NCBI RefSeq assembly: GCF_000384415.1
Contig: NZ_ARVU01000001.1
Location: forward strand, 372,001-436,000
DNA length: 64,000 nt
Direction: 5' to 3'
From: Cycloclasticus pugetii PS-1
Lineage (GTDB): Bacteria; Pseudomonadota; Gammaproteobacteria; Methylococcales; Cycloclasticaceae
How positions within the stretch are numbered: position 1 is the first letter of the stretch; each line of letters starts with the position of its first letter. The translations under genes and the position numbers were made by a program. The notes below the pieces were generated by a model. It was given only the letters and a program-made list of their open reading frames with translations, was not told the DNA's origin and searched no databases. Of the stretch, positions 30,947-36,251 are shown piece by piece.

Positions 30947-33712
30947 TTATAGGGTGGCGATCTTCTCTTTTTGATCGTTTAAATTGCTAAGTTTTGAGGT
31001 AATATCGAGCTGTTTTGCTCTTTCTTTTTCTATAACGGCAGCGGGTGCTTTGTCGATAAAAGAAGCGTTTGATAATTTACCGCTGATGCGTGATGCCTCT
31101 TTTTCAAGCTTTTCAATTTCTTTATTTAAGCGTTCTAGCTCGGCATTTTTATCAATTAGCCCAGCCATTGGTATTAGCACTTGCATATCACCGACTAGAG
31201 CAATAGCAGATTGTGGTGCTTCATCTGCTGCGTTTAATGTGGTGATGGATTCTATACGTGCTAGTTTTTCCAATAATAAACGATTATCTGTAAGACGCTG
31301 TTGGTCTTGTTCTGAACAGTGGTTTAACAGTACCGGTAATGGCTTACTAGGGGGGATATTCATTTCGCCGCGAATTTGACGAATGCCCATAACGAAATCC
31401 ATTACCCATTGCATATCACTTTCAGCAGCGGCAGATATTTTACTGTCATCGGGCTTTGGGTAGGCCTGTAGCATAATGGTATCGCCCGTTTTGCCTGCCA
31501 GTGGTGCTATTTGCTGCCAAATTTCTTCGGTAATAAATGGCATCAGCGGGTGTAGTAAGCGCAGCACAGTTTCTAGCACACGAATTAAGGTTTGGCGAGT
31601 TCCCCGTTTTTGTTCGGCTGAACTATTGTCATCAAGCAAAATTGGTTTTGATAACTCTAAGTACCAATCACAGTATTCATTCCAAAGGAACTCATACAGC
31701 GATTGCGCGGCTAAGTCGAAGCGGTATTTTTCGATAGAGGCAATAACGTTGGCTTCGGTTTTTTGTAAACGAGATTTGATCCATTGATCTGGCAAGCTGT
31801 AAATACAAGGTTCGTTGGTTAAACCCGTGTCTTCGCCTTCGGTATTCATTAGCACGTAGCGAGTAGCATTCCACAATTTGTTGCAGAAATTACGGTTGCC
31901 TTCAATTCGGTTTAAATCGAATCGAATGTCGCGCCCAGTCGAGGCCAGTGAGGCAAAGGTAAAACGTAGTGCATCGGTGCCAAAAGAAGGGATGCCATCG
32001 GGGAAGTGCTTACGGGTATCTTTCTCGATTTTAGCAGCCATTTTTGGTTGCATAAGGCCTTTTGTACGCTTTTCAAGTAAGTCATCTAGCGTAATGCCGT
32101 CGATTAAATCAATCGGGTCCAGTACGTTACCTTTGGATTTGGACATTTTTTGCCCTTCCGCATCGCGCACTAAGCCGTGAATGTATATTTCTTTAAATGG
32201 CACATCGTCCATAAACTTCAAGCCCATCATAATCATTCTGGCGACCCAGAAGAAGATGATGTCGAAACCGGTAACGAGTACACTGGTGGGGTAAAAAGTA
32301 TCAAGCTCAGGTGTTTTATCGGGCCAGCCAAGGGTAGAGAATGGCCATAATGCGGATGAGAACCAAGTGTCTAATACATCTTCATCTTGTGATAATACAA
32401 GGCTATCGGCTAGGTTGTTTTTTTCACGGACTTCGGCTTCATTGCGGCCAACATATATGTTGCCACTCTCATCGTACCAAGCGGGAATTCTATGGCCCCA
32501 CCAAATTTGACGAGAAATGCACCAGTCCTGAATATCGTTCATCCAGTTGTAATAGGTTTTATCCCAGTTTTCAGGTACAAATTTAATTTTGCCGCTTTTA
32601 ACCGCTTCAATAGCAGGTTTTGCCAGCGGTTTGGCCTTAACAAACCATTGGTCTGTTAACAAAGGTTCAATGATCACCCCTGACCGATCGCCACGAGGCA
32701 CCATGAGTTTATGGTCATCAATTTTAGCTAATAAGCCTAAATCATCCAAATCTTGTACGATTTGTTTACGTGCTGCCACGCGATCCAAGCCACGGTATTT
32801 TTCTGGCATCTCATCATTGATGCTGGCGTCAACGGTGAAGATGTTGATTAACGGCATATTGTGGCGTTGACCCACCTCATAATCGTTAAAATCGTGAGCA
32901 GGGGTTATTTTTACACAGCCAGTGCCAAATTCTGGGTCTACATAATCATCGGCAATAACTGGGATTTCACGTTTACATAAAGGCAACGCGATCATTTTGC
33001 CAATAAGGTGTTGGTAGCGTTCGTCAGATGGGTGAACGGCGACACAAACATCGCCTAGCATGGTTTCTGGGCGGGTCGTTGCAACCACAAGTTCACCGCT
33101 ACCATCGGCTAATGGATAGCGCATATGCCACATATGGCCTTGTTCTTCTTGCGAAATAACTTCAAGGTCGGATACCGCAGTGTGTAATTTAGGGTCCCAG
33201 TTAACCAGGCGTTTACCGCGATAAATGAGCCCTTCTTCATGTAGTTTTACAAACACTTCGTTAACCGCTTTAGACAGCCCTTCGTCCATGGTGAAACGCT
33301 CGCGCGACCAATCTAGGGAGGTGCCCATGCGGCGTAATTGCTTAGTGATGGTGTTGCCAGATAATTCTTTCCAATCCCAAATGCGCTCAACAAATTCTTC
33401 GCGGCCTAAGTCGTGGCGAGTTTTACCTTCTGCGTTTAATTGGCGTTCAACCACCATTTGGGTCGCAATACCGGCATGATCACTACCGGCTTGCCATAGG
33501 GTGTTGTGTCCTTGCATACGATGGTAACGCGTTAGTGAATCCATGATCGTGTCTTGGAAAGCATGCCCCATGTGTAAGCTACCGGTAACATTGGGCGGCG
33601 GTATCATAATGCAATAGGCGCTATCGCCTCCTTTGGGTTCGAAGTAACCTTGTTCTTCCCATTGGCGATACCAGCGAGATTCTATGTCATGCGGGGCGTA
33701 TGTCTTATCCAT
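30947..33712 (-). CDS. valS: Valyl-tRNA synthetase
   Basis: 921-residue class I aminoacyl-tRNA synthetase. HMGH signature in [13 protein letters not shown], editing domain with [22 protein letters not shown] loop as [15 protein letters not shown], anticodon-binding domain and a C-terminal coiled coil. It normally follows holC directly (pepA-holC-valS); here 613 bases that include an inverted-repeat element intervene. Confidence 0.98.
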
Positions 33713-33858
33713 CGTGTGTGTTCGGTGTTGATTTTTAAAGGCGGTATTATAACTTTGTTGGAGAGGGTGGGGTTGTTGGTAAGCAAGTTTTTAGCTTAAT
33801 GATATTTTACAAGAAGAAGGTTTGTTAGTTTTCCTTAATACGTAATGTTTATAGTTTT

Positions 33859-34316
33859 TCGCTGTCGCGAGGACGTTCATTTCTTTTGTTCACCCAAAAG
33901 TAACGAACCAAAGAAAAGGGTGCCCTAATATCAGTAAATTAACAGTTTTCGGGCTCGCAGGTAAACTCGCTACGCTCAGAGAACCTGCTTACTTATCCGA
34001 AAACAGCTAATTTACTTGCGAGATAAAGGGACGGTAAATCTAGAGCCATATCTGAACCGGTCTTGATTTTAATATCCCCTTTTGCTCTCACTGAAAAACT
34101 AAGCATTAAAATAGAGCGTTCTAATGTGGCTGTTTGAGCCTGTTTTGTAGGCGAGTTCCACAGTAGCTATTTTAGTGATTGGTTTTGAAGGAACCCTTCA
34201 GGGTGAAAGCATTTGGGTGGCATTTTTCTGGTTATTCTTTTGTTGTTACTGACAAAAGAGTAACTCGGCCTTTAGGGCGAAACTTTAACTAGAAATGAAC
34301 ACTCTAGCGACAGCGA
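33859..34316. repeat. 458-bp non-coding element with imperfect terminal inverted repeats
   Basis: The 26 bases at 33859-33884 and the reverse complement of 34291-34316 match at 22 positions (both start TCGCTGTCGC and end GTTCATTTCT). Internal stem-loops are CTTTTG/CAAAAG (33883-33900) near the left end and CTTTTGT/ACAAAAG (34237-34258) near the right end. An 82-bp interrupted palindrome lies at 33934-34015. No open frame of useful length exists. It lies in the 613-base gap between valS and holC and begins nine bases after the holC stop. A MITE-like or dispersed intergenic repeat is the best reading; similar CTTTTG/ACCAAAGAAAA motifs recur between genes in proteobacteria, by my recollection. 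The rest of the gap (33713-33858) shows nothing clear. Confidence 0.6.
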
Positions 34317-34325
34317 TAATAAGAA

Positions 34326-34748
34326 TCAAATTTTATGCGTCTGCAGTCGATACCCTCTGCTCTTATAAAACTTAAACCGCTCCCGTCCTGCTTGTTTAAT
34401 TGATTCATTTTGATTAACAAGCTCAGCAAATCGTTCAAACCGAGCAAAACAATCGGGTGTTTTCTCAGTAAGGTTAATTAGCACGTCGTGAATATCTAAC
34501 GGGTCACCAGTGTGGTTAATGTACACTGGGTGGTTGGCGCACTTTGTTGGGTCCATAGTATGTGGTACAAAACTGGTGGGCGAGAAGGACCAAAGCAAGT
34601 CATCCACTGTCTTGGATTGTTGTTCTGAATCGGTATGAATATACACGCGATGACCCTGTTTGCTAGCTTTTTGAGCTAGCCGACAGGCAAAAAGGTGCTG
34701 TGCATCAGGGGTGTCATCTGGCAGTACATAAAAGTCGATTCTGGTCAT
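34326..34748 (-). CDS. holC: DNA polymerase III chi subunit HolC
   Basis: 140-residue chi subunit that links the clamp loader (through psi) to SSB on the lagging strand. The start TRIDFYVLPDDTPDAQHLFA, SFVPH and the C-terminal GRERFKFYKSRGY resemble the family at normal length. It lies 15 bases after pepA. The gene appears intact although the repeat element ends nine bases past its stop. Confidence 0.93.
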   Translation of the reverse strand: MTRIDFYVLPDDTPDAQHLFACRLAQKASKQGHRVYIHTDSEQQSKTVDDLLWSFSPTSFVPHTMDPTKCANHPVYINHTGDPLDIHDVLINLTEKTPDCFARFERFAELVNQNESIKQAGRERFKFYKSRGYRLQTHKI

Positions 34749-34763
34749 TTTGTAATGGCTTGT

Positions 34764-36251
34764 TTAACAGCGATCCAATATAAATTGGCTTAGCATGTGA
34801 ACAGGGCGACCAGTTGCGCCTTTATCCGTACCCGATTTCCAGGCAGTGCCGGCAATGTCTAAATGAGCCCATTTATAATCTTCGGTAAAGTGTGACAAGA
34901 AGCAGGCTGCGGTAATAGTGCCACCAGCAGGGCCACCAATATTAGCGAGATCGGCGAAGTTACTTTTTAGCTGGGGTTTGTATTCATCCCACAGTGGTAA
35001 TTGCCATGCTTTGTCATTGGCTTTAATGCCAGCGTCTAGCAATTCGTTAGCCAATTTATCGTTATTGCCTAGTAAGCCGGTGGCATGTTTTCCTAACGCG
35101 ACTACACAAGCGCCAGTTAAGGTAGCAATATCAATGACTACTTCAGGTTTAAATTTAGCAGAGTAGGTGAGTGCGTCACATAAAATTAAACGTCCTTCTG
35201 CATCAGTGTTTAAAATTTCAATGGTTAGACCGGCCATGCTGGTAACGATATCACCAGGTTTGTTGGCATCACCATCGGGCAGGTTTTCTGATGATGGAAC
35301 AACGCCAACTACATTGATGGGTAAATTTAATTCGGCGCACATTTGAATCACGCCGAAGACACTTGCACCACCGCACATATCGTATTTCATTTCATCCATA
35401 CCGGATGAGGGTTTTATGGAAATTCCACCGGCATCAAAAGTGAGGCCCTTACCAACCAGAACGATGGGTTTTTGAGAACTTGGGCCACCTTTATGTTCCA
35501 TAGTAATGAGCTTCGCCGGTTGGCGAGAACCCCTAGAAACAGATAATAATGAGCCCATTCCTAGTGCTTCCATTTTGGCTTCATCTAAAATGGTTATTTT
35601 AAGCGATGCGTGTTGTTTGCCAAGTTCTTTTGCTGTCTCAGCTAAGTAGCTTGGGGTGCAAATATTACCGGGTAAATTGGCTAATTTTTTTGCGCTGTCA
35701 ATGCCATTAGCGATACTCGAGGCGGTGTCTGCAGCACTGTTGATCATTTTTGCAGTGTAATCATCGGTATGCCATAGTTGGCATTTTTCTAATATGTTGG
35801 CATCGGGCGCGGAGGTTGTGAGCGTATCGGTGTATTGGTAAAGTGCTTCACGAGACTTCAATACTAACTGACGAACTTTCCAGTTGATATCTTTACCGCT
35901 AACTTCAACAGCTAATAATGTAGAGCAAACAGCCTTAATCGGTAAGTTTTTAAGCGAGTTGATGCTTTCGCTGATGGCCTTTGTGTAATCTTCCGCTGAG
36001 GTGTTGCCTTGCTCGCCAAAACCGACAAGAAGCACACGCTTTATTTTGCTGCTGGCAGGCATTTGAAGTAACAGTGTATTGCCCGCTTTGCCAGAAGCGT
36101 CACCTTGTTTTAAAACGGCAGCTATTTGTCCATCATGGGCTTGGTCGAAGTGGGTGGTTATTTCAAGCTGTTTACCTTTACTGAAAACGGGCAAAAGAAG
36201 GCAAGGAGTTGAAAGTTTATCGATTGACCCTGTTTTTGAAACGAATTGCAT
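34764..36251 (-). CDS. pepA: Leucyl aminopeptidase PepA
   Basis: 495-residue M17 dizinc aminopeptidase that removes N-terminal residues; in Escherichia coli it also acts in Xer recombination and as a regulator. Metal and catalytic residues are in VGKGLTFDAGGISIKPS, YDMCGGASVFG and the NTDAEGRL signature. ATG 36251 (MQFVSKTGS) is chosen: AGAGG precedes it and the upstream extension has no family likeness. Divergent from lptF over about 110 bases, so promoters for both must lie there. Confidence 0.95.
   Translation of the reverse strand: MQFVSKTGSIDKLSTPCLLLPVFSKGKQLEITTHFDQAHDGQIAAVLKQGDASGKAGNTLLLQMPASSKIKRVLLVGFGEQGNTSAEDYTKAISESINSLKNLPIKAVCSTLLAVEVSGKDINWKVRQLVLKSREALYQYTDTLTTSAPDANILEKCQLWHTDDYTAKMINSAADTASSIANGIDSAKKLANLPGNICTPSYLAETAKELGKQHASLKITILDEAKMEALGMGSLLSVSRGSRQPAKLITMEHKGGPSSQKPIVLVGKGLTFDAGGISIKPSSGMDEMKYDMCGGASVFGVIQMCAELNLPINVVGVVPSSENLPDGDANKPGDIVTSMAGLTIEILNTDAEGRLILCDALTYSAKFKPEVVIDIATLTGACVVALGKHATGLLGNNDKLANELLDAGIKANDKAWQLPLWDEYKPQLKSNFADLANIGGPAGGTITAACFLSHFTEDYKWAHLDIAGTAWKSGTDKGATGRPVHMLSQFILDRC

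Follow-up and report, generated by a model that had tools for sequence, protein, structure and literature searches.

The window, a stretch of 64,000 nucleotides, carries valS and holC on the minus strand, and the 613-bp spacer between them holds a 464-bp element bounded by inverted ends. Pfam confirmed both neighbours named in the initial annotation (HolC and valyl-tRNA synthetase), and in agreement with the lack of a coding frame claimed there, the ORF list of the window held no ORF of at least 60 aa overlapping 33856-34319. The 26-base ends that had been described (33859-33884 and 34291-34316, matching at 22 of 26 positions in inverted orientation) were reproduced; the best 26-mer match in 200 dinucleotide shuffles of the spacer was 19, and none of the 200 reached 22. 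When extended, the ends run from 33856 to 33884 and from 34291 to 34319, with 24 of 29 positions identical in inverted orientation, and the distances first given as 146 bases to valS and nine to the holC stop are here corrected to 143 from the valS start and 6 from the holC stop. The reported CTTTTG hairpins were found close to either end of the element. Folded as single-stranded DNA, the element had a z-score of −7.3 against its own shuffles, none of 100 being as good. The features of the locus are as follows.

30947..33712, minus strand: valS (PF00133)
33746..33751, minus strand: TATAAT, likely −10 box of valS, outside the element (conserved in 15 of 16 junctions)
33856..34319, no strand: whole element, two inward-pointing arms, gene-less, 464 bp (end match, second copy)
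33856..33884, plus strand: left 29-base end, the outer end of arm A (inverted-end match, genus pattern scan)
33856..34034, plus strand: arm A, structured, 179 bp (alignment A1, n = 19 arms; paired changes 20/44)
33875..33908, plus strand: terminal hairpin of arm A, TTTCTTTTG...CAAAAG (arm A alignment)
33923..34030, plus strand: long hairpin of arm A with CCC-GGG closing (arm A alignment, covariation)
33963..33979, plus strand: conserved loop of arm A, AAACTCGCTACGCTCAG (almost invariant in the arm A alignment)
34066..34290, minus strand: arm B, structured, 225 bp (alignment A2, n = 12 arms; paired changes 29/60)
34231..34264, minus strand: terminal hairpin of arm B (arm B alignment)
34291..34319, minus strand: right 29-base end, an A-arm outer end joined outside arm B (inverted-end match, copy comparison)
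34326..34748, minus strand: holC (PF04364)

The TATAAT box precedes valS in 15 of the 16 junctions of the genus that could be read through to valS, empty and filled alike (the exception is G010); where there is an insert, the box sits between it and valS. A consensus scan did not flag this box, so its assignment as the valS −10 box rests on conservation. The suggestion that the element supplies a terminator or promoter was not supported: within the element, the same scan picked up nothing resembling either on the coding (minus) strand, and promoter-like sites in the region occurred at the level of chance (3 found, 2.3 expected). Because the box is kept and the scan was negative, the element does not appear, judging from the sequence, to have taken over expression.

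Two structured arms under pairing constraint

Arm A runs from its outer end through the CTTTTG hairpin and the spacer AACCAAAGAAAAGG into the long CCC-GGG hairpin with its near-invariant loop; arm B follows a similar plan but differs in sequence in the aligned copies. The outer 29 bases of an A arm stand outside arm B, which explains the matching ends seen at the window element, and because its right end is therefore a copy of the arm A outer end set on a different arm, the element is not a simple two-ended palindrome. The arm A-end pattern was present in 15 of the 18 genomes of the genus and its reversed control in none.

Changes on both sides of a base pair were seen at 20 of the 44 pairs of arm A (19 arms) and at 29 of the 60 pairs of arm B (12 arms). 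The covariation score of arm A was 0.253 vs 0.074 in shuffles, with none of 500 shuffles reaching 0.253, and slid controls gave 0.031-0.048. We conclude that the base pairing of both arms is under strong constraint. Nearly all of the alternative pairs in arm A were Watson-Crick, with few G-U, a bias that suggests, at the level of sequence, a better fit to folded DNA than to folded RNA. A search of 33000-35000 against Rfam, at E up to 5, returned two matches, both under the gathering scores of their families. By eye, a further small hairpin module (AAGGCATAAGTCTCA and variants) lies within or beside arms in several species (L023, L035, L038, L027).

Copies of the element and the junctions they occupy

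The copies that the mobile-repeat reading called for were found both in this genome and in its relatives. Searching the complete genome (a single contig of 2.38 Mb) at the DNA level returned one other full copy, at C1:2279591-2280004, which is 80% identical to the window copy over 428 bases; the remaining genome matches were short and weak. With genes named by reading their translations, this second copy lies between rsmE and an ORF adjoining gshB. That ORF, of 196 aa (L019 3938-4528; C1 2278937-2279527), has no Pfam or PADLOC match. As only two copies were found in the genome and these are 20% apart, there is no sign of recent movement within it. At E ≤0.001 the element matched 43 of 100 relatives, including 15 of the 17 other genomes of the genus; outside the genus most matches were short, and many covered a core of ∼46 bases. 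The phage and plasmid collections, from which close neighbours of the window may be missing, gave no match to the element. In G013 (L328 6200-6270), two arm A outer ends stand face to face with almost nothing between them, forming a tiny palindrome.

holC was found in 17 of the 18 genomes of the genus (G003 had no holC match), and the predicted empty junctions exist: in 7 of the 17 (G014, G005, G013, G012, G004, G009, G015) the holC-valS spacer is empty, at 80-85 bp. Arms of the family occupy the spacer in 9 (G000, G001, G017, G011, G008, G016, G002, G006, G007); in G007 the spacer exceeds 1.5 kb, valS lying beyond the fetched holC stretch, and the arms were seen from the other side, at L022. 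The spacer of G010 is filled by a YoeB/YefM toxin-antitoxin pair (Pfam). This pair lies at L056 2166-2674, in a spacer with neither arm nor TATAAT box. Sister genomes differ in what they carry: in a tree of holC and pepA, in which 7 of 14 inner branches are weak and G006 has under half of the columns, G015 (empty) pairs with G016 (arms) at support 99/98, and G006 (arms) with G010 (toxin-antitoxin pair) at 100/100. Starting at holC, one meets the arms in the order B-A in G000 and A-B in G011, which implies either two insertions or a flip of the element. At the second junction, the survey of 16 rsmE-gshB loci, 5 of which stop short of gshB, left 11 measurable spacers: 3 empty (91-92 bp), 4 with arms and 4 with other inserts. 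We conclude that the holC-valS spacer is a place of repeated insertion in this genus. No clear target duplication was seen there by eye, the element ends not being exact. In the one filled/empty comparison of close relatives, that of G011 and G007, only one flank matched, and ∼95 bases beside the end were also unmatched.

Identity between G000 and G001 was 94.8% in the element, 82% in pepA, 81% in holC and 91% at the start of valS, and G001 has, in addition, another element and a further fragment of the holC 3′ end. G001 thus looks like an importer, by recombination, of foreign holC-element-valS DNA. The further holC fragment is located between the two elements (L055 2279-2336).

Inward arm pairs and the genes between them

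A scan of named genomes with the core pattern gave at least 120 stretches. The 80 titles among the matches listed were nearly all of Beta- or Gammaproteobacteria or just of Proteobacteria, with one labelled Deltaproteobacteria, and core carriers among these matches included Polaromonas, Acidovorax, Thiobacillus, Methylobacter and others. A 20-base motif of the conserved arm A loop of the window copy, which lay outside the core search pattern and was looked for in the expected stretch, was present with at most 4 mismatches in 18 of 107 named-genome arms among the matches listed and in none of 107 outward controls. It was seen in none of 43 order-level arms, although these have the core in common, which weakens any claim that the arms are alike throughout.

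Of the cores in named genomes among the matches listed, 49 had 2 kb or more to either side; an inverted partner lay inward in 30 of these and outward in none. Outward inverted pairs were likewise absent over all loci among the matches listed, a result that says little for the order-level loci, as these were trimmed mainly on the inward side. Close pairs (<700 bp) accounted for 41 of 120 named loci among the matches listed and 4 of 39 order-level loci, wide pairs (0.7-6 kb) for 11 of 120 and 11 of 39 (22 of 159 in total), and no inward partner was present at 68 of 120 and 24 of 39, the order-level count being 39 of 40 because cores without a nearby hairpin half were filtered. At 23 of the 68 partnerless named loci among these matches, less than 700 bases of inward room was available. 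Short matches define the wide pairs at L287 (one of 30 bases), L256 (37 and 34 bases) and L305 (43 and 65 bases).

Among the matches listed, 20 of the 22 wide pairs enclosed a plausible ORF when the ORF lists were read by eye; L270 and L280 had no convincing gene inside. The genes at L215, which we take to be purK and a Sua5-like gene, are probably host genes, and this locus is taken as two separate elements, although the totals of 22 wide loci and of 20 with ORFs both include it. Anti-phage systems were matched by PADLOC at two loci: Septu PtuA (6e-162) with PtuB beside it (2e-97) at L305, and a retron II-A reverse transcriptase (5e-121) with its NDT partner (1e-82) at L273. Other cargo included a RelA/SpoT protein matching PDC-S33 (3e-104) at L164, a protein at L193 whose first 140 residues match PDC-S64, an interrupted AAA gene at L276, the two pieces of which match the AriA and GajA models moderately or weakly only, and a number of proteins that are small or look secreted and that had no family match. 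By count, enrichment of the cargo in defence genes was not shown: PADLOC matches at E ≤1e-10 occurred at 6 of 21 cassette loci vs 4 of 20 neighbouring control genes, one of the four control matches hitting the PolA part of its model and possibly being DNA polymerase I. The strength of the matches did differ, the best cassette match being 6e-162 and the best control match 3e-51.

ORFs also stand between arms within the genus, at L099 (two ORFs with A arms on either side) and L320 (one ORF). The two ORFs of L099, in G008, lie between inverted A arms and one of them matches PDC-S59; in G011, the ORF is lipoprotein-like and lies between arm B and an A end, and its close relative G007 lacks this ORF at the one matching flank. 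G008 also has a tandem pair of A arms separated by 555 bp (L099 2814-3545), in an apparently duplicated stretch beside a RAYT gene. The inward pairing of arms, together with the ORFs between wide pairs elsewhere, identifies the window copy as a cargo-free member of the inverted-arm family.

Nature of the element and candidate mobilising enzymes

The dispersed copies and empty junctions bear out the claim of a mobile or dispersed repeat made in the initial annotation, which had missed the wider family, the two distinct arms and the genes between arms elsewhere. With good confidence, we interpret the window element as a small, gene-less form of a non-autonomous mobile element that has long, inward, foldable arms as its ends and that entered just after the holC stop, upstream of what is likely the valS promoter. 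The folded arms, perhaps as single-stranded DNA, would be recognised by a trans-acting enzyme, which would move whatever stands between them, and homologous recombination between copies may spread the elements further between strains. More tentatively, the element could be the empty version of a not yet named class of gene cassettes without a transposase in Beta- and Gammaproteobacteria. Two long folded DNA arms, selected for pairing, would serve there as the mobile ends of units with one or two accessory genes, including whole anti-phage systems, and these units would be moved in trans by some enzyme via folded single strands; no name for the inverted-arm family was found in the open-access literature searched. 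If so, one arm signature would mark a large set of proteobacterial mobile cassettes, easily overlooked because they carry no transposase. The arms would then offer an easy way to search for accessory genes and possible defence genes (here Septu and retron II-A lie between arms), and they raise the question of which enzyme recognises them.

Mobile insertion cassettes and TIMEs carry genes between inverted ends without a transposase, the ends coming from known transposon families. Some members of the present family also hold genes between inverted ends without a transposase; unlike those cassettes, no known transposon was found with these arms, and the window copy holds no passenger gene. REP and BIME repeats are palindromes of 20-40 bp with a GTAG or CGTC tag, often in >100 copies and flanking a RAYT gene, whereas the arms here measure 179 and 225 bp, have two genome copies and show no tag by eye, and the RAYT loci of this genome are armless. 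MITEs are short and gene-less, with inverted ends, and are dispersed in intergenic DNA (PMC10969869). The window element shares these properties, with dispersed intergenic copies and empty sites, and it departs from that description in that its family has two different long structured arms and ORF-bearing members, and no parent transposon was found in the loci inspected. RAYT genes flanked by long inverted repeats were described by Di Nocera et al. 2013 (PMC3733652), and the TIRtrons and TIR repeats resemble our arms as long inverted-repeat families of bacteria, some of them self-complementary; our arms differ in not being RAYT-linked as a rule, in having two types and in enclosing other cargo, with no gene in the window copy. 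BRE, a mainly intergenic repeat of Polaromonas, Acidovorax, Rhodoferax and Bordetella, resembles the arms in its intergenic place and its hosts but differs in being about 90 bp long and often tandem, a comparison made by description (PMC3110155). We conclude that the window copy behaves as a MITE would, and its larger relatives as mobile insertion cassettes would; we assign it to neither class, because neither a target duplication nor a parent enzyme was found.

Alternatively, the window element could be a decayed MITE of the ordinary sort, derived from a classical insertion sequence whose ends were 29 bases long. Its size, its ends, its lack of a gene and its dispersed copies would all fit, but the whole arm is conserved rather than the ends alone, arms A and B differ, the two ORF-bearing pairs inspected in the genus (L099, L320) hold no transposase, and the ORFs of the wide pairs L273 and L276 that we take to be insertion-sequence transposases accompany other genes; we therefore consider this origin rather unlikely. 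It is also conceivable, but less probable, that the element spreads only through homologous recombination of the flanking genes, its arms being a structured spacer kept for a function in the transcript, such as RNA hairpins or mRNA stability. Both copies in this genome do lie just downstream of a gene (holC, rsmE), and the second holC 3′ fragment of G001, beside a 95%-identical copy, looks imported. Against this stand the copies at unrelated sites within one genome and the bounded units with ORFs inside, and the Watson-Crick bias of the arm A alternative pairs suggests DNA rather than a transcript.

A non-autonomous element moved in trans, which we prefer, leaves the question of its enzyme, for which the RAYT (Y1) transposases were the obvious candidates. 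The arms would then be REP-like or TIR repeats moved as REPtrons or TIRtrons, in the sense of Di Nocera et al. 2013 (PMC3733652), a possibility to which we give the least credence. RAYT genes are common (86 of 101 genomes searched, with two in this genome), and at L276, L304, L287 and L348 inverted matches enclose RAYT-like ORFs; the Pfam RAYT scores of L276 (19.1) and L304 (18.2) are below the 23-bit family cut-off, and the L287 pair is a 30-base match. In G008, one RAYT gene lies ∼82 bp outside an arm. Against a general link, neither of the two RAYT genes in this genome has an arm within 1.5 kb, the core was absent from all 29 RAYT loci examined in relatives, with flanks of as much as 1.5 kb, no RAYT ORF was found in the 120 named core loci among the matches listed, and the RAYT of L276 has an inverted repeat of its own and looks like nested cargo. 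RAYT as mobiliser, to which the RAYT ORF next to L042 and the case of G008 had first pointed, is thus not supported. Among the loci inspected, no transposase with these arms as its own ends was recognised, and no mobilising enzyme for the arms was found.

A cassette-type RAYT was present in 35 of the 101 genomes and in none of the 18 of the genus. In a check that skipped loci of <3300 bases (26 of 30 and 18 of 30 kept), flanking inverted repeats were found at 24 of 26 cassette-type loci, and 1 of these 24 contained the core. The RAYT at these 26 loci is of a type beginning MGRSRY (L346-L375), and its inverted repeats, mostly of 30-90 bases and near the gene, give a TIRtron-like arrangement.
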